Of a stretch of DNA of 35,538 bases, positions 27,823-35,538 are shown in pieces. The stretch lies in IMG/VR virus record IMGVR_UViG_3300031749_000019, positions 1 through 35,538 of that record, one strand, 5' to 3'. The translations under genes and the position numbers were made by a program. Position 1 is the stretch's first letter. Every line of letters starts with the position of its first letter. The notes under the pieces were generated by a model. It saw only the letters and a list, made by a program, of their open reading frames with translations, did no database searches and had not been told where the DNA came from. The stretch comes from a virus.

Positions 27823-27860
27823 GGATTCATCGTCAAAAGGAGGTGAATAATAAATAGGCA

Positions 27861-27889
27861 TTGACCTAGCACATTAACAAGTCTATAAA
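27861..27889 (+). promoter_or_regulatory. Capsid gene promoter
   Basis: TTGACC (27861-27866), 17 bases, TATAAA (27884-27889). The transcript would start near 27896 and include about 190 bases of leader plus exon 1 and the intron. AGGT and ACCT followed by CTTTTTTAT just after it form only a weak hairpin. Confidence 0.7.
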
Positions 27890-28057
27890 GGTATTGTTGA
27901 CCTCTTTTTTATCATTTGTAATGATAGAGAGGGAAAGGTTGAACATATTTTATTGATTCCAGATAAAGATATAAAAGCTAAACATTTGTCAATATCGGAA
28001 AGTAAAATAAAAACCAAATACTCAAAATATCGCCTTTCTTTATTACAGACTTGTTAA
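27878..28057 (+). pseudogene. Coding-like remnant without a start (possible nuclease fragment)
   Basis: A 59-residue open frame with no start codon that ends at TAA 28055-28057. It reads like protein, with strands 'YKGIVDLFFIICND' and 'HILLIPDKDI' and later 'SISESKIKTKYSKYR'. The pattern recalls the C-terminal part of intron-associated or PD-(D/E)XK-type nucleases, but this is impression only. Together with the orphan RBS it suggests DNA inserted between the capsid RBS and start codon. Confidence 0.35.
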
Positions 28058-28084
28058 TCACTACGAAGTTGATGCCAAAAATAT

Positions 28085-29444
28085 ATGGCGCAATTAGCTG
28101 GTGTTCATCAGACCTTAAAATAATAGGGTCCGCTGGGAGCAATCCCTTCGAAAAAATAGCTCTTTGAAATCGGTGAAAGTCTGAACGAATTGATAATCAT
28201 CTCAATTTATGATATACCAGCAGTGGTATGCGTAAAGAAGAGAAGATTACAATGTCGAAGATAACGCCGAGCCAAGATATACGACTTGCTTGGCTGGCAG
28301 GAATAATAGACGGAGAAGGAAGTATCTCAGTTCCCTCTTTTGTTCTTTATCCTGCTGGCACAAGTTCGCTATCGGAGCGAATAATCCCAATTATAAAAAT
28401 GGAAAATGGACGGGGAGGAAAAGACGTATATCGGGTGTAACGACTGAGTAAGAGCTTCTTCAAATACCGATGTGAAGATAAAGCCACAGTCTGGTCTATA
28501 TAGAAATATATAGAGGCTAGCAGAAATGACTAGCCCCGTTCATAAGAACGAGTAACAACAACGACATGGATACGACCAGAAGAGAGGATCTTTTGGATCG
28601 TATTATTGATATCTCTCCTGACAAAAACTATTTGTCCACCATCATGGGGACGGTTGAGGCAACTCAAACGTTGCATGAGTGGACAGAATATTATCAGGCA
28701 CGTCCAACCTCAAACAGCACAAGCGGTGAGGGAGATGAAAATTCTTTTAGCGACCTTTCTGTTCCGACCAAGAAAAACAACATTTGCCAAATTATAAAGG
28801 AAGTGTTTGCTGTTTCTCGAACGGACATTAAAGTCAATAAGGTTTCTCCTAAAGATGCTTATGCTCGTGAGATGGGTTGGGCCATGAGGAGATATAAGAA
28901 TAAGGAAGAGTATGCCATTTTGAGAGGCACAAAAGCCTCTGGTTCATCGGGTGTTGCTAGAGAAATGAACGGGATTATTGCCACGGTTATAACCGATGGT
29001 TTATATACTGCTCGTGCATCTGGTACATCCATGTCTGAAGAACGCTTTAGATACATGATGAAGGCGTCCTGGGACAAGACCGATGAACAGCTTGTAGACT
29101 TGCTTTTGACAACGGGAGCAAGAAAACAAGACTTTGGCAGGTTCTTTACAACTTCAACACCGAAGACTATTCCTGCAGACGACAAGAGACTGGTTCAAGC
29201 CTTGGATGTCATTGAGACAGACTTTGGCTCGCTGGTTGAAATTCGTGCTCATAAGGATATGCCAGATGGCGCAGTTTTGGCTGTTAGAAAAGATTTGCTC
29301 AAGAAAGCATATCTTGATACACCTCAACACGTACCGAATGGTATTACCGGCGATAACAGGAAAGGTCATATCGTTGGCGAGTTAACAGTTCAAGTAGATA
29401 CGGCGAGAGCAATGGTCTACGAGACTGGATTCAATTTAGCTTAA
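28085..29444 (+). CDS. Major capsid protein (SU10/DUF5309-like), split by a group I intron
   Basis: Exon 1 is 28085-28115 (MAQLAGVHQT plus one base) and exon 2 is 28564-29444. Joining them gives codon TAC and a 303-residue protein, in frame. The sequence 'REDLLDRIIDISP' near residue 20 and 'SWDKTDEQLVDLL', 'VRKDLLKKAYLDTP' and the short C-terminus after 'YETGFNLA' fit the HK97-fold SU10/DUF5309 capsid family. Exon 2 alone would begin at an internal Met and lose the N-terminus. No ribosome binding site is adjacent. It is the shell protein, with scaffold upstream and a terminator (29467-29530) downstream. Confidence 0.85.
28116..28563 (+). ncRNA. Group I intron in the capsid gene
   Basis: About 448 nt. 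P1: exon GACCT (28111-28115) pairs with GGGTC (28126-28130), ending in the required U-G at the splice site. P2-like: GGGA-GCAA-TCCC (28135-28146). P3: ATCGGT (28169-28174) with ACCGAT (28466-28471). P7: GACTG (28442-28446) with CAGTC (28487-28491). Peripheral hairpins at 28188-28207, 28214-28229, 28495-28514 (GAAA loop), 28515-28535 and 28537-28550. The intron ends with G28563. The ordering P3, P7, P3', P7' is that of group I; subgroup is not assigned. Confidence 0.88.
28228..28440 (+). pseudogene. Truncated LAGLIDADG homing endonuclease in the intron
   Basis: A 70-residue frame with one LAGLIDADG motif (LAWLAGIIDGEGSI, about residues 23-36), then only about 34 more residues ending 'GGKDVYRV'. 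Normal single-motif enzymes are well over 100 residues and need the downstream DNA-binding sheet, so this is almost certainly an inactive remnant. The end abuts the P7 strand of the intron, suggesting an internal deletion that kept the ribozyme core. The start overlaps the P6-like hairpin. Confidence 0.8.
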
Positions 29445-29538: not shown

Positions 29539-30102
29539 ATGGGCAAATGTGTAATTTGCGGAAAAGAACTTACATCCGACCAGGAAAAATGTTGTAGTGT
29601 TAAGTGTAGAAACACTTATGCCAGATCTTTTTTTAATGAAGAAACACGGAAGAAAATGAGTTTGGCAAAAAAATTTAACCCCTCTTTCTATTGGTTGGGG
29701 AAACATAGATCAGAGGCGGTTAGGCAAAAGATAAGCGAGAAATTAAAGGGGCGTCCAGGACATAGTCCGCCTAAATGGGCAATAGAAATTTTTAAGAGGA
29801 ACGCTGTTCATCGAAGCGGAAAAGATCATTATAACTGGAAGGGTGGAATATCTTTTGAGCCATATTCAGTAGATTGGACGGAAACACTAAAAAGAAGCAT
29901 TCGGGAAAGAGATCATTATATTTGTCGGGTGTGCAATAAGATACAGGGAGATGAGGTATTTTGTGTGCATCATATAGATTATGACAAGTTGAATTGTGAC
30001 CCAAATAACTTGATTACTCTTTGTAGGAAGTGCCATGTTAAAACTAATTACAATAGGGATTACTGGAAGAAATATTTTAGACAACTTTTATGGAAGAGAT
30101 AA
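29539..30102 (+). CDS. Free-standing HNH homing endonuclease with NUMOD3-like motifs
   Basis: A 187-residue protein. Residues 4-24 are a zinc finger (CVIC and CCSVKC). Residues 35-43 (KKMSLAKKF) and 60-72 (VRQKISEKLKGRP) match NUMOD3-like DNA-binding repeats. Residues 125-165 are an HNH domain (CRVC, VHHIDYDKLNCDPNNLITL, CRKCH). This is the layout of phage homing endonucleases. It sits directly behind the capsid terminator, so it may be the partner that mobilised the capsid intron locus, or an independent invader. No ribosome binding site. Confidence 0.85.
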   Translation: MGKCVICGKELTSDQEKCCSVKCRNTYARSFFNEETRKKMSLAKKFNPSFYWLGKHRSEAVRQKISEKLKGRPGHSPPKWAIEIFKRNAVHRSGKDHYNWKGGISFEPYSVDWTETLKRSIRERDHYICRVCNKIQGDEVFCVHHIDYDKLNCDPNNLITLCRKCHVKTNYNRDYWKKYFRQLLWKR

Positions 30103-30443
30103 TAGACAAAACAGGAATACCACGACCGAAATGGGCAGTTGATTTGGTGGATAATTTTTTGGCAAAAGTAAGGTCTCGGCCAATGTGGGAAATGATAGAT
30201 TTTATTGTTTCCGTTTATATTACAAAGCACCCCGAATACTTAAATCAACCAAGGACTTCTTACATCAATAAGTTTGCTTCAACTAAAGACAAGAGTATGA
30301 GAAAGTTGCTCACAATCCCCGTTGATCTGAAAGACACAATTGACTGGTTTTACAAGGAAGATATTAAAAATATTGGTGAAGTAAAGTTTTGGCGAAAGTT
30401 TGCACAAAGATATCCTAACCTTTCGCCAGCGGAGAAGATATGA
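30090..30443 (+). CDS. Unknown protein, 117 aa
   Basis: A 117-residue helical, basic protein overlapping the HNH gene by 13 bases and the glycosyltransferase gene by four. 'RPKWAVDLVDNFLAKVRSRPMW' forms an amphipathic helix; no known domain. It could be a glycosylation cassette helper or a leftover of the HNH insertion. Confidence 0.5.
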   Translation: MEEIIDKTGIPRPKWAVDLVDNFLAKVRSRPMWEMIDFIVSVYITKHPEYLNQPRTSYINKFASTKDKSMRKLLTIPVDLKDTIDWFYKEDIKNIGEVKFWRKFAQRYPNLSPAEKI

Positions 30444-32743
30444 ACAAGCTAGCGTTAAATATGATTATAAAAGACGATACGGAGGCGGAGATTTTGTATC
30501 GGTGTTTGTCTTCAATTGCTCAATATGTAGACGGTATTTTTATCACAATTACCAACAAACCCCACGACAAGATTAAAAAGATTATTGAGGCTTTTGGTGG
30601 CAGAGTGTCTTTTTATCAATGGGATAAGTCTTTTGAAAGAGCAAGAAATTATGCTTTAGACCAAGTTCCCGAAGAATATAATTATATTGTTTGGACAGAC
30701 GCCGACGACGTTTGGGAAAATGCCAAGATGTTGCCGGCAATGGTTGATTTGATGGATAAACAGGGGATAACTGCTATTTATTTTGATTATAATTATCAAA
30801 TCAATCCCAAAACAAAAGAAGTTGAGATTGTTCACCCAAGAGAAAGAATAATCAAAAGAGGTTATTACCGCTGGAAGGGAAATCTTCACGAAACCCTTAT
30901 TCCGCAAAGAGAGGTCAACAATGCTTACTTTAAAGACATTAAGGTTAATCACTATCCGCTTCCTACAGCTGGCGAGACAAATTTGACAAGAAACCTAGAA
31001 ATACTAGAGGCGACCTATAAAGAAGAAGGAGATAAACACGATCCTCGAACACTTTACTATCTCGCTAGAAATCTTTTTGATGTAAGAGAATTAGACAGGG
31101 CGGAAAAGTTATTTATTGATTACTTGCAAAGTTCGGGTTGGGACGAGGAAAGAGCAATGGCGGCCAATTACTTGGGCTTGATTTATCTTTTTAAAAGAGA
31201 TTTTGACAAAGCTAAGGCTAGTTTTTTACAAGCAATCTCCGAGAAACCTAATTTCCCCACTTGGTATGTTAATTTAGCTTATCTTCACGCCCTGCAAGGA
31301 AAATTTGAAGAAGCAGTGCATTATGCTAGATTGTTTGTGGCAACTCCTCAACCTGATACTTCAATGGTTTTAATTCCGGTTGACGACAAGATGCGATATT
31401 ACGAAACAATCTTTTTGATTGCGATGGGAAAAAGGAAGTTAAAGGAGGCCAAAGATGCCTGCAAAGCAATCTTGGAGATTTTCCCCGACGATGAGGATTA
31501 CAAAAAGAAACTGGAGGGGCTGGAAAGGCTGGACGAGTTGATTGAGGTAACTAAAGGGGTTGATTATGTTGCTAAAGAGTTAGACAAACAGAAAGAAACA
31601 GAGAAGATTGGTCTTCTTTTGCACGCCTTACCTTCAACAATTGAAGACAATGCGGTGATTGAGCAGTTAAAACAAAAGTATTTACAGCCTACTGTATGGC
31701 CAGAGAAGTCAATTGTTTATTTAGCTGGCAAGACAATTGAGGAGTGGACGCCAGAGAGCCTTAAAACGGGTTTAGGGGGCTCAGAGACGGCAATTGTGCA
31801 GTTATCTAAGGAATGGGTTAAGTTGGGTTATAAAGTAACGGTTTTTGGCAATTGTGGGGCCAAAGAGGGTATGTATGATGGCGTGGATTATAAAAATTAC
31901 TATCGTTTCAATAAGTATGATACTTTTGATACTTTGATTATTTGGAGAGCACCGTGGGAGTTGGATTTTAAGTTCAAGGCAAAAAGAATTTGGTTGGACT
32001 GCCACGATGTCTTAAATCCTTTAGAATTTACACAAGAGAGGATTGCTAATGTCGATAAAATCTTTGTGAAGTCGAGGTTTCATCGTGATTTTATTCCTCA
32101 CGTGCCAGACGATAAAATAGTTATAATTCCGAATGGGTTTGATAAAGAGTTGTGCCGTTATAACAAAGCTAAGCGTAATCCCTACTCACTGATTTATTCT
32201 TCAAGTTATGATCGAGGGCTTGAGCAAATGCTTACTTGGGGTTGGCCGATTATTAAAAAAGAAATCCCAGAAGCCGAACTTCATATTTATTATGGTTGGA
32301 ATTTGTTTGACGCCGTTCATAGAAACAACCCCGAACGGATGATGTGGAAGAAAAAGATGATTGAGTTAATGAGTCAGGACGGAGTTTTTGAACACGGCAG
32401 GATAGGTCATGAAAAACTGCTTGAGGAAAAAAGCAAATCGTCAATTCATTATTATGTAACGAATTTTGAAGAAATCGATTGTATTTCGATAAGGGAGTCT
32501 GCGGCAGTTGGTTGCGTACCAGTAACTTCAAACTATGCCGCCTTGAAAGAAAAAGATTATGTGATTAAGATTAACGGCGACCCTAATCTGCAAAAGACAC
32601 ACGAAGATGCCGCCAGAGAGATTGTGTGGCTTCTTAAGACCAAAGAAATGGAAAAATACAGACAGGAGTTCAAGGAAAGGGCGAGAAAGGAAAGTTGGCA
32701 GGAGCAGGCAAAATTATGGATATCAGTTTTGAAAACAAATTAG
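30440..32743 (+). CDS. Trifunctional glycosyltransferase: GT-A + TPR + GT-B
   Basis: A 767-residue fusion. Residues 1-190: GT2-like GT-A domain with DADD (87-90), the metal/nucleotide-sugar site, and 'YYRWKGNLHETL' near 146. Residues about 195-360: tetratricopeptide-like helical repeats ('AMAANYLGLIYLFKRDFDKA', 'YVNLAYLHALQGKFEEA'). Residues 415-767: GT4-like GT-B domain with 'LGGSETAIVQLSKEW' and late 'ESAAVGCVPVTS'. Fused synthases of this kind add sugars stepwise, here likely to a virion or host surface target. It is the first of the cassette, coupled to the upstream gene by ATGA overlap. Confidence 0.85.
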   Translation: MNKLALNMIIKDDTEAEILYRCLSSIAQYVDGIFITITNKPHDKIKKIIEAFGGRVSFYQWDKSFERARNYALDQVPEEYNYIVWTDADDVWENAKMLPAMVDLMDKQGITAIYFDYNYQINPKTKEVEIVHPRERIIKRGYYRWKGNLHETLIPQREVNNAYFKDIKVNHYPLPTAGETNLTRNLEILEATYKEEGDKHDPRTLYYLARNLFDVRELDRAEKLFIDYLQSSGWDEERAMAANYLGLIYLFKRDFDKAKASFLQAISEKPNFPTWYVNLAYLHALQGKFEEAVHYARLFVATPQPDTSMVLIPVDDKMRYYETIFLIAMGKRKLKEAKDACKAILEIFPDDEDYKKKLEGLERLDELIEVTKGVDYVAKELDKQKETEKIGLLLHALPSTIEDNAVIEQLKQKYLQPTVWPEKSIVYLAGKTIEEWTPESLKTGLGGSETAIVQLSKEWVKLGYKVTVFGNCGAKEGMYDGVDYKNYYRFNKYDTFDTLIIWRAPWELDFKFKAKRIWLDCHDVLNPLEFTQERIANVDKIFVKSRFHRDFIPHVPDDKIVIIPNGFDKELCRYNKAKRNPYSLIYSSSYDRGLEQMLTWGWPIIKKEIPEAELHIYYGWNLFDAVHRNNPERMMWKKKMIELMSQDGVFEHGRIGHEKLLEEKSKSSIHYYVTNFEEIDCISIRESAAVGCVPVTSNYAALKEKDYVIKINGDPNLQKTHEDAAREIVWLLKTKEMEKYRQEFKERARKESWQEQAKLWISVLKTN

Positions 32744-33258
32744 AGAATGGGCATATCGAGAGGATTGTTCCTAATATCAGCCCGCAGAAATACGTTGATG
32801 AACATATTGAGAGGTATAACTATGCCAAGGGCTTAATGTATGGTAAAACCCTTGATGCTGCCTGTGGTGTTGGGTATGGTTCAAAGATATTAAGTGAAAA
32901 GTGCGATAAGGTAATAGCGGTTGATTATTCACAAGAAGCGATAGATTATGCCTCAAAACATTATGGTGATCCTAAAATTTCTTTTGAGTGTCAAGATCTT
33001 GATCGTTGGGATATTCCGATCGTCGATTGTGTTGTCTCGTTTGAAACGTTAGAACACCTAAGAGATCCGCAGAGGTTTTTACAGCAGGTTTTTGACAGGT
33101 CGAGATTGTTTGTTTTCTCGCTTCCTCTTAATTCCCCGATAACCGAATTTCATTTGCGGAAATTTGACAATATCGATGAAGTGAAACAATTTATAGGAAA
33201 AGAATTTGAATACTTTATACAAAAAGACGTTTATGTTGTGGGAGTATGGAGAAAATAA
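32716..33258 (+). CDS. SAM-dependent class I methyltransferase
   Basis: A 180-residue protein from the ATG at 32716; it overlaps the upstream stop. Motif I is LDAACGVGYGS (about 38-48), followed by 'VIAVDYSQEAIDYA' (motif II, acidic Asp), 'VDCVVSFETLEHL' (motif IV/post). A Methyltransf_11/25-type fold. In a glycosyltransferase cluster it probably methylates a sugar or lipid-linked intermediate, capping the glycan. GGAG lies 12 bases upstream. A DNA-methylation role is unlikely without a target-recognition domain. Confidence 0.8.
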   Translation: MDISFENKLENGHIERIVPNISPQKYVDEHIERYNYAKGLMYGKTLDAACGVGYGSKILSEKCDKVIAVDYSQEAIDYASKHYGDPKISFECQDLDRWDIPIVDCVVSFETLEHLRDPQRFLQQVFDRSRLFVFSLPLNSPITEFHLRKFDNIDEVKQFIGKEFEYFIQKDVYVVGVWRK

Positions 33259-33929
33259 CTTTTTCAATTATTTGTCCTCTTTATAATCGAAAGAAAGAAG
33301 CTCATCTTGTTACACAAGAGTGTTTAGATAGTGTTTTTAGATACTCCAAAGATTTTGAGTTGATACTCGTTGACGATGCCTCGCCTCTTTATGTTGATGA
33401 TTTATTGTCTCAAGCTGATATAGCTATTAAACACAAAAAGAATATGGGGCTTGCTCCGAGTTGGAACGATGGAATTAAGATTGCTAGGGGTAATTATTTG
33501 GTTTTGATAAATAACGATATTGAAGTTTGTGAAGGGTGGCTTGAAAGAATGAAAAAGGCATTAGATATTTTAGATGGGGCTGTTTGTGGACCAGCAGTTG
33601 AACACCTACCTAACGATCCGTCGCAACCCGCCCACCAGTGGTTTCCGGGCAGTTGTTTTATGCTGAAGAGAGAAACAATCGAAAAGGTAGGTTTATTTGA
33701 CGAAAATTTTATTCCATATTACTTCGAGGACACCGACTACTGGACAAGATTATTAAAGACAGGTTTGAAAACGGTTAGGGCATTTGATGTCTTTATTAAG
33801 CACAAAGAAGGATTTACGGTTAAGGATTTAGCAAGAGACGAACAATACCAAAAGAATTACAAGAAGTTTATGGAAAAGCACGGATTTGACCCAATACCAG
33901 TTTTTTGCGGCGGGGAGGAGCTAAAATGA
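33246..33929 (+). CDS. Family 2 glycosyltransferase
   Basis: A 227-residue GT-A protein, short but complete: 'FSIICPLYNRKKE' at the N-terminus, 'LILVDDASP' (about 39-47), 'GNYLVLINNDIEV' (about 80-92, the DXD-like NND), then 'GLFDENFIPYYFEDTDYWTRL' (about 155-175, the acceptor/EDxD motif). This is the classical rhamnosyl/galactosyl-type GT2 layout. It overlaps the methyltransferase by 13 bases and the next gene by four. No membrane segment, so the donor would be a cytosolic nucleotide sugar. Confidence 0.88.
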   Translation: MEKITFSIICPLYNRKKEAHLVTQECLDSVFRYSKDFELILVDDASPLYVDDLLSQADIAIKHKKNMGLAPSWNDGIKIARGNYLVLINNDIEVCEGWLERMKKALDILDGAVCGPAVEHLPNDPSQPAHQWFPGSCFMLKRETIEKVGLFDENFIPYYFEDTDYWTRLLKTGLKTVRAFDVFIKHKEGFTVKDLARDEQYQKNYKKFMEKHGFDPIPVFCGGEELK

Positions 33930-34603
33930 TAATACTGTATCGGATTTGTCCTCACAACAGCACCAAAAGTCCATTCTTCCCCGATAATAAGTTAAAGATG
34001 GTTGAGGTATGCTTGAAGTCTTTTGTTGACGGATTTGGCGATATTAAACCTAAAATTATCTTTATTTTAGACACTTGTCCGCCAGAATATAAAGAGTTAA
34101 TTGAAAGAGTTGTGCCTTTTGAAAAAGAATTCATTGAAGGAAACAATTTAGAAAATTTGGGTTCATTTAGAAAGCAGGTTGAGATCGCTTGCGGTTTAGA
34201 TGATTATGTTTTGTTTCAAGAAGATGATTATTTGTATGTGCCGGATGTTGGGGAAAAATTACAAAAAGCGGTTGAGAAATTTGATTTTGTTACTCCGCAG
34301 GACGAATATCTTTATTATTTTAACGAGCCAAGACATATCGGAAAATATGAGATTAAGGTTATCGCCGACCACCATTTTAGGGAGGTTAATTCAACAACCC
34401 TAACTTTTGCCTGCCATTCTAAACTGATTAAGGAAAATAAAGATATAATTTATAAACACGAGATTTGGGATTTTCCGATGTGGCAGGAAATAAGAGGAAA
34501 AGATTATAGAATTTGGTGTCCTATTCCTACTTTTGCCACTCACCTTGCTGATAATTTAGCACCTTGTGTAGACTGGGGAGAAGTATGCCAAAAATATCAG
34601 TAA
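33926..34603 (+). CDS. Glycosyltransferase-like protein (GT-A fold)
   Basis: A 225-residue protein from the ATG at 33926, with GGGGAGGAG just upstream. 'IIFILDTCPPEYKE' (about 45-58) and 'YVLFQEDDYLYVPD' (about 95-108, EDD as the DxD-type metal site) match GT-A chemistry, as does 'NSTTLTFACHSKL' near 160. It overlaps the next gene by 19 bases. Similarity is weaker than for the neighbours. Acceptor unknown. Confidence 0.7.
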   Translation: MIILYRICPHNSTKSPFFPDNKLKMVEVCLKSFVDGFGDIKPKIIFILDTCPPEYKELIERVVPFEKEFIEGNNLENLGSFRKQVEIACGLDDYVLFQEDDYLYVPDVGEKLQKAVEKFDFVTPQDEYLYYFNEPRHIGKYEIKVIADHHFREVNSTTLTFACHSKLIKENKDIIYKHEIWDFPMWQEIRGKDYRIWCPIPTFATHLADNLAPCVDWGEVCQKYQ

Positions 34604-35307
34604 TAACACCGACAATTTATCCTGAAAGGTTAGAGATTGTTAGAAAAGCACTCTCTAACCAAACATTTAAGGATTTTGAGTGGCTTATTGGCTCTCCGTT
34701 TGACCCTCAGATAAAAGAAGTCAGATGGATTGTAGATGATTTTAAGGGTGGTTTTTGGAGTTTAAATCGTGTATATAATCGTTTGTTCAAAGAAGCCAGC
34801 GGCGAGCTTTTGGTGAGCCTACAGGATAATATTTGGGTGCCACCTACTGGGTTGGAGAAGTTTTGGATTGATTATGATGCTACAAGAGGAATAATCAGCG
34901 GAGTGGGCGATCAATATGCAAAACTTGATGAATTTGGCAAGCCAATTGTAAAAGTTTGGGAAGATCCGAGAAAAACAGATAAATATGGCAGTTTTTATGA
35001 GTGTAACTGGAACGATGCCGAATTTAATTGGTGTGCTATTCCCAGACAGGCAGTTTTTGATGTTGGCGGAATGGACGAAAATTTAGACTTTTTAGGATAC
35101 GGGGGCGACCAGCTTCAACTTTGTGAAAGGCTTAATGACTTAGGTTGTAAATTTTACTTAGACCAAACTAATGAGAGTTTTACTTTAAGGCACGGAAGAA
35201 AAGAAGGCTGGGATGAAAATCATGTTTTGCATAATGGAGCTTATGATAAGAGAAAGGCAGAATTAAAAGAAAAAGGTCTTTGGCCGGTCTTGAATTATTT
35301 AAAATAA
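34585..35307 (+). CDS. Family 2 glycosyltransferase
   Basis: A 240-residue GT-A protein from the ATG at 34585 (GGGGAG is 4 bases upstream). 'ISVITPTIYPERLEIVRKAL' opens the fold; 'LLVSLQDNIWVPPTGLEKF' (about 80-98) carries an unusual QDN in place of DxD; 'GGMDENLDFLGYGGDQLQLCERL' (about 170-192) is the acceptor motif. It is the last gene of the cassette; a promoter and attenuator follow within its final codons and just downstream. If QDN cannot bind metal, activity could be altered. Confidence 0.8.
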   Translation: MPKISVITPTIYPERLEIVRKALSNQTFKDFEWLIGSPFDPQIKEVRWIVDDFKGGFWSLNRVYNRLFKEASGELLVSLQDNIWVPPTGLEKFWIDYDATRGIISGVGDQYAKLDEFGKPIVKVWEDPRKTDKYGSFYECNWNDAEFNWCAIPRQAVFDVGGMDENLDFLGYGGDQLQLCERLNDLGCKFYLDQTNESFTLRHGRKEGWDENHVLHNGAYDKRKAELKEKGLWPVLNYLK

Positions 35308-35390: not shown

Positions 35391-35538
35391 ATGGCTTTTA
35401 AATATGTTCAAAGGAAATCTGCTAAAGCAAAGAAAAGAGCGGGTAAAAGTTTTGTGGCTAGTGGCAAAAAACCAGTATTAGGACAAGGGGGTAGATTTAA
35501 GGCTCTGAAGGGAGCATTGGCTAAAAAGGGAGCCTCTA
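35391..35538 (+). CDS. Small basic phage protein, N-terminal part (continues at base 1)
   Basis: The ATG at 35391 follows AAGGTGA by 6 bases and encodes MAFKYVQ before entering the 127-base overlap; the protein continues at base 1 and ends at 216, giving 78 residues in all. It is the first gene of an operon that leads into the connector and stopper. Confidence 0.85.
   Translation, partial: MAFKYVQRKSAKAKKRAGKSFVASGKKPVLGQGGRFKALKGALAKKGAS
35412..35538. repeat. Second copy of the 127-base end overlap
   Basis: This is the same sequence as bases 1-127. It continues in frame the gene that begins at 35391, so joining the two ends restores one uninterrupted reading frame. That supports circularity over a tandem duplication. 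Confidence 0.93.

Follow-up and report, generated by a model that had tools for sequence, protein, structure and literature searches.

A predicted group I intron with a truncated LAGLIDADG reading frame divides codon 11 of an SU10-type major capsid gene in an uncultured virus

Group I introns in phage capsid genes are already established. In LittleE, a cluster J mycobacteriophage, RT-PCR and N-terminal sequencing demonstrated splicing of the capsid intron, and the same paper cites a group I intron in a capsid subunit gene of the lactococcal phage Tuc2009 (PMC3706429). According to a 2025 survey of phage group II introns, phage group I introns apparently prefer genes of nucleotide synthesis and DNA metabolism (PMC12350094). 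Few phage products are made in larger amounts than the capsid protein, and an intron that interrupts its gene has to be removed with high efficiency.

The locus described here lies in the window, the whole 35,538-nucleotide stretch of IMG/VR virus record IMGVR_UViG_3300031749_000019. An exact direct repeat of 127 bases occupies both ends (1-127 and 35412-35538), and the record is therefore likely to be a full genome of some 35.4 kb. Upstream of the capsid frame at 28566-29444 lie a terminase gene and a portal-like gene. Glycosyltransferase and TPR genes occupy 30440-35307, 3′ of the capsid region, and the gene at 30440-32743 has counterparts behind the capsid gene in the relatives L001 and L003. 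The capsid gene itself is divided as follows.

28085..28115, + strand: exon 1 of the major capsid gene, 31 nt, encoding MAQLAGVHQT and the first base of codon 11
28116..28563, + strand: predicted group I intron, 448 nt, last base G, from the RF00028 match, the fold z-score and the homologue in L170
28564..29444, + strand: exon 2 of the major capsid gene (SU10_MCP), PF17236 at 175 bits from exon 2 alone

Read without splicing, the frame from ATG 28085 gives MAQLAGVHQTLK and then two stops, which lie two codons inside the intron. Joining 28115 to 28564 produces a single 303-aa frame that matches PF17236 SU10_MCP over the whole protein (176.5 bits, cut-off 24.1); this is the Pfam family that the original prediction called DUF5309. 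That prediction had an intron splitting the gene after ten codons, a 31-base first exon and an in-frame 303-residue product. All of this is borne out to the base, with the refinement that codon 11 itself is split, as T|AC (Tyr). The internal Met start expected of automated annotation is also what a mechanical ORF call returns (28566-29444, 292 aa). Short 5′ exons of this kind are lost by gene callers, so that capsid N-termini are misstated; the N-terminal peptide predicted for the exon 1-bearing capsid protein is MAQLAGVHQTYMDTTR.

Three relatives in IMG/VR, L001, L002 and L003, have capsid proteins 91, 76 and 74% identical to that of the window and carry the gene in one piece. Across the predicted junction, MAQLAGVHQT-Y-MDTTRRED, they read MAQLTGVHQTYVDTARRED, MAQLAGVQHTYMDTTRRED and MAQLAGVHQTYMDTTRRED, respectively, matching it without interruption, and farther relatives read MAFGLDTYQDSARRED, MAYGLITYQDTGRRED and similar. 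The Thr-Tyr at the splice site is common to all close intronless relatives. The joined N-terminus had been said to fit the family, and homologues lacking residues that match exon 1 had been named as evidence against it. None was found, since every close intronless homologue begins with those residues and continues into exon 2. The same alignments bear on a reading in which exon 1 is a chance ATG and the region an ordinary structured leader before a capsid gene that starts at 28566. Apart from the automatic ORF call nothing speaks for it, whereas exon 1 equals the L003 N-terminus residue for residue (MAQLAGVHQTY), its residues or close variants occur in all close relatives, and the joining is in frame, at a U and a G. 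Contradicted by the homologues, this reading was rejected and its probability is close to nil.

The intron RNA contains the helices of a group I core, read as follows.

28111..28130, + strand: P1, GACCU (28111-28115) with GGGUC (28126-28130), U.G pair at the 5′ splice site, also present in the MFE fold
28159..28455, + strand: P3, GCUCUU (28159-28164) with AAGAGC (28450-28455), fully paired
28170..28270, + strand: P4, UCGG (28170-28173) pairing with CCGA (28267-28270)
28442..28491, + strand: P7, GACUG (28442-28446) with CAGUC (28487-28491), fully paired
28513..28536, + strand: P9-region hairpin with the family motif GAGGNNNGCAGAAATGNCNNNNCC, covariation over 104 sequences

The P1, P3, P7 and terminal G named in the original prediction are all where it placed them, and its helices are paired. 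The group I model search that it proposed was only partly in its favor: Rfam RF00028 matches 28106-28513, from the exon end to P9, with an E-value of 4.3e-7 in a 1-kb stretch, but at 35.3 bits, under the curated cut-off of 50. As the match is also dropped by filters when the whole window is scanned, the score alone is insufficient to settle the assignment. The intron fold is unusually stable (z-score -7.1; 0 of 100 shuffles as stable). When the intron is folded in full by itself, P7, a pseudoknot partner, is left unplaced, and the core was therefore read by hand, with core helices other than P9 taken from a hand alignment of seven or eight introns. Across eight introns P3 has eight different sequences, each paired at six of six positions, and the fifth pair of P7 is G-C, A-U or U-A in relatives. 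P9 and its adjoining helices covary over the 104 related introns listed, with 97% paired against 72% in shuffles, and 424 double changes against 112 ± 12. Rfam group II domains gave no match at E up to 10 across 27823-28900, and a group II intron was rejected on this ground. The group I features found are the U in the P1 U.G pair, the terminal G with an in-frame junction, and P3, P4 and P7 with covariation. The elements of the original prediction are thus confirmed as real, and its reading of them as a group I intron is supported.

A homologous intron occurs in L170 (IMGVR_UViG_3300037851_000300), whose capsid protein is 38% identical to that of the window. It is placed in the same gene family at the same Tyr codon, giving MAIGLIT-Y-DDASRREDLVD when spliced. 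The two introns are 71% identical over 66 nt at the 5′ splice site and 84% over 64 nt in the 3′ domain; the alignment also spans P4-P6 and the ORF start, and the P7 region agrees at 14 of 14 positions. P1 and P3 differ between the introns with compensation, P1 being AACUU/GAGUU in L170 and GACCU/GGGUC in the window. L170 thus shares the codon, the gene family, the RNA and the start of the ORF with the window, but has a full 149-aa LAGLIDADG ORF, a 662-nt intron and an apparent TTG start, where the window has a 62-aa remnant within 448 nt. An ATT start considered for L170 exon 1 was replaced by this TTG once the introns were aligned. Read by eye, the SU10-type capsid gene of L172 (~1560-2500) has an insertion with an HNH ORF at a later site.

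Two endonuclease genes, neither part of the original prediction, accompany the capsid gene.

28252..28440, + strand: LAGLIDADG homing endonuclease remnant, 62 aa, motif LAWLAGIIDGEGS, sense strand
29539..30102, + strand: free-standing, intact HNH endonuclease gene with NUMOD3, missing behind the L001 capsid gene

The remnant retains a LAGLIDADG motif, LAWLAGIIDGEG; at 62 aa it has no Pfam match, and its homologues in L170, L007 and L019 match PF14528. It is 46% identical to the 149-aa ORF of L170 over 41 residues and 54% to L007 over 37. Mobile introns carry an intact endonuclease gene; here 62 of about 150 aa are left. With most of the LAGLIDADG protein gone compared with L170, the intron has probably lost its own mobility. 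The HNH gene could have a role in intron movement; in L001 the next gene begins about 69 nt past the capsid stop, with no HNH gene between.

The junction, the core helices, the presence or absence of the intron in relatives, the shared site and the truncated ORF are established at the level of sequence, from which we infer splicing and its efficiency. We consider it highly probable, at roughly 0.92, that this is a group I intron of the kind found in bacteria and phages, most of whose own homing endonuclease is gone. A late transcript would be translated from ATG 28085 to the stops two codons into the intron. The intron would then fold, with P1 gripping the end of exon 1 through GACCU/GGGUC. 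Guanosine would attack after U28115, and the freed exon 1 would in turn attack after G28563. The joined mRNA would encode the 303-aa SU10-type major capsid protein. The intron may formerly have been mobile through its LAGLIDADG endonuclease, as in L170, and we propose that it is retained now because its removal is needed for capsid production. The HNH gene, intact and 95 nt downstream of the capsid gene, could mobilize it by co-conversion. Against this explanation stand the sub-threshold RF00028 score, the hand-read core and the position of the Shine-Dalgarno sequence, orphaned with respect to translation of the spliced message. The insertion that separates it from the start codon is a further element beyond the original prediction.

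27838..27846, + strand: Shine-Dalgarno AGGAGGTGA belonging to the capsid gene, orphaned ~239 nt upstream of the ATG
27856..28082 (ends approximate), + strand: ~228-bp insertion in the Shine-Dalgarno/ATG gap, from the leader alignment with L001-L003
27873..27888, + strand: left arm of an inverted repeat, 16 nt, 94% complementary to 28043-28058
28043..28058, + strand: right arm of the inverted repeat, partner of 27873-27888
27881..28054, + strand: 58-codon open frame with no start, possible C-terminal remnant corresponding to phrog_13389 positions 126-178 of 196

Ten relatives whose leaders match have a GGAGGTGA-like motif ~8-14 nt ahead of the capsid start codon; the distance in the window is ~239 nt because ~228 bp are inserted. 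The insertion is absent from the leaders of all relatives compared. The disrupted start region, the truncated endonuclease ORF and the open 292-aa frame would all suit a dead, non-splicing remnant, with the capsid protein made from internal Met 28566. Yet P1, P3, P4, P7 and the 3′ domain have all been preserved, the conserved residues of the family are still present in exon 1, where drift would be expected if it were unused, and ATG 28566 has no preceding Shine-Dalgarno unless the message is spliced. Such a dead remnant is improbable, and a spliced group I intron is preferred.

The insertion was considered as a second group I intron and rejected, as 27856-28082 has no Rfam group I or group II match. 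A helix of at least 15 pairs arose in 5 of 2000 dinucleotide shuffles of the insertion. An outer helix of nine pairs, GGCAUUGAC/GUUGAUGCC, can form at the insert ends; with it formed, the Shine-Dalgarno lies 11 nt and the ATG 8 nt from the helix, in a fold 1.5 kcal/mol above the minimum. The 58-codon frame matches phrog_13389, a family of unknown function, at E 7e-4 (5e-5 in a genome search), and finds nothing in PDB sequences or NCBIfam and nothing significant in Pfam. By protein, no relatives of the insertion were found in viral contigs, cultured phages, PDB or NCBIfam, and phrog_13389 is absent from 778 further genomes. In phage T4, a hairpin brings the distant Shine-Dalgarno of one gene close. 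The insertion may be a decayed endonuclease-like gene, tolerated since its outer stem draws the Shine-Dalgarno near the ATG. The 16-bp inverted repeat with the outer helix at the insert ends, the 11/8-nt spacing in a near-minimum fold and the phrog_13389 fragment point this way. The lack of an assigned function for phrog_13389 and its absence from those 778 genomes count against it, as do the failure to find a second copy of the insert and its uniqueness here. We hold this reading tentatively, at somewhat less than even odds.

The end of exon 1, GACCT, has two further copies in the insertion (27863-27867 and 27899-27903), a short way downstream of the orphaned Shine-Dalgarno. Two copies appeared in 3 of 1000 shuffles (0.3%), a pattern that was noticed post hoc and is a lead only. 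Conceivably the insertion and the intron form one switch, in which an upstream GACCT is spliced to 28564, removing exon 1 and placing the Shine-Dalgarno before Met 28566. If so, alternative splicing would decide which of two capsid proteins is made, or at which of two rates translation runs, in a manner that resembles the c-di-GMP riboswitch-ribozyme of Clostridioides difficile (PMC3984707). It counts against the switch that splicing of this kind would leave a long spacing, of 26 nt or more, and we regard the switch as very unlikely.

The intron belongs to a wider family. The 3′ hairpin pattern GAGGNNNGCAGAAATGNCNNNNCC, scanned over viral contigs, occurs in at least 120 stretches; its stem is paired in 126 of the 130 matches listed, nearly all of which run into a GTAACA-like end. 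The 50 distinct exon 2 proteins among the matches listed, whose listing order is unknown, were scanned singly against PHROGs. They comprise 32 major head proteins, three portals, two major tail proteins, a terminase, a tape measure, a ribonucleotide reductase and ten uncalled or of unknown function. L007, uncalled by PHROGs, is Phage_capsid_4 by Pfam, and L019 is 57% identical to it, which brings major capsid genes to 34 of the 50 listed, against one DNA-metabolism gene. In cellular genomes the motif occurs in 23S rRNA genes, including a bacterial element (L238) that is group I by RF00028 (63.6 bits, above the cut-off) and has the same GCAGAAATG hairpin at its intron end, with rRNA as its host gene. 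In cultured phages the motif adjoins tail, RNA polymerase, ribonucleotide reductase and ATPase genes; the consensus 3′ domain as a BLAST query returned nothing useful from cultured phages. Given these other host genes, the capsid preference is a property of the uncultured-virus sample, among the matches listed.

Splice models were built for eight capsid-gene introns that carry a LAGLIDADG ORF or what is left of one. In seven of them, from four lineages, the intron follows the T of a Tyr codon, at codons 8 to 30. LAGLIDADG introns at T|AY near the N-terminus were seen in different capsid families in L037, L079, L007, L019, L113 and L170. Across the site, about 80 intronless homologues of the L037 type have GG-Y-MYS, GG-F-MYS or sequences close to these. 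A proposed rule that an in-frame stop always lies within five codons of the splice site was dropped, as a hand count in L170 looked contrary. The capsid gene of L012 (2780-3600, 4720-4989) apparently has two group I introns, the second at 51.7 bits, above the Rfam cut-off.

Among described systems, LittleE shares with the window an intron of group I type in the major capsid gene, a LAGLIDADG-like ORF, intronless relatives, a U before the intron and a G at its end. It differs in its 819-bp insertion, in an ORF on the opposite strand, and in phage group and host, whereas the window has a truncated ORF in the sense orientation and its intron sits in codon 11. Tuc2009, likened here by description only, is also a phage whose capsid gene holds a group I intron. 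The locus combines an unusual leader with a family-level capsid pattern among the matches listed, and the intron family is little described. Its occurrence in uncultured viruses mainly in capsid genes, among the matches listed, contrasts with the reported preference for metabolism genes (PMC12350094), a contrast that is testable at scale.
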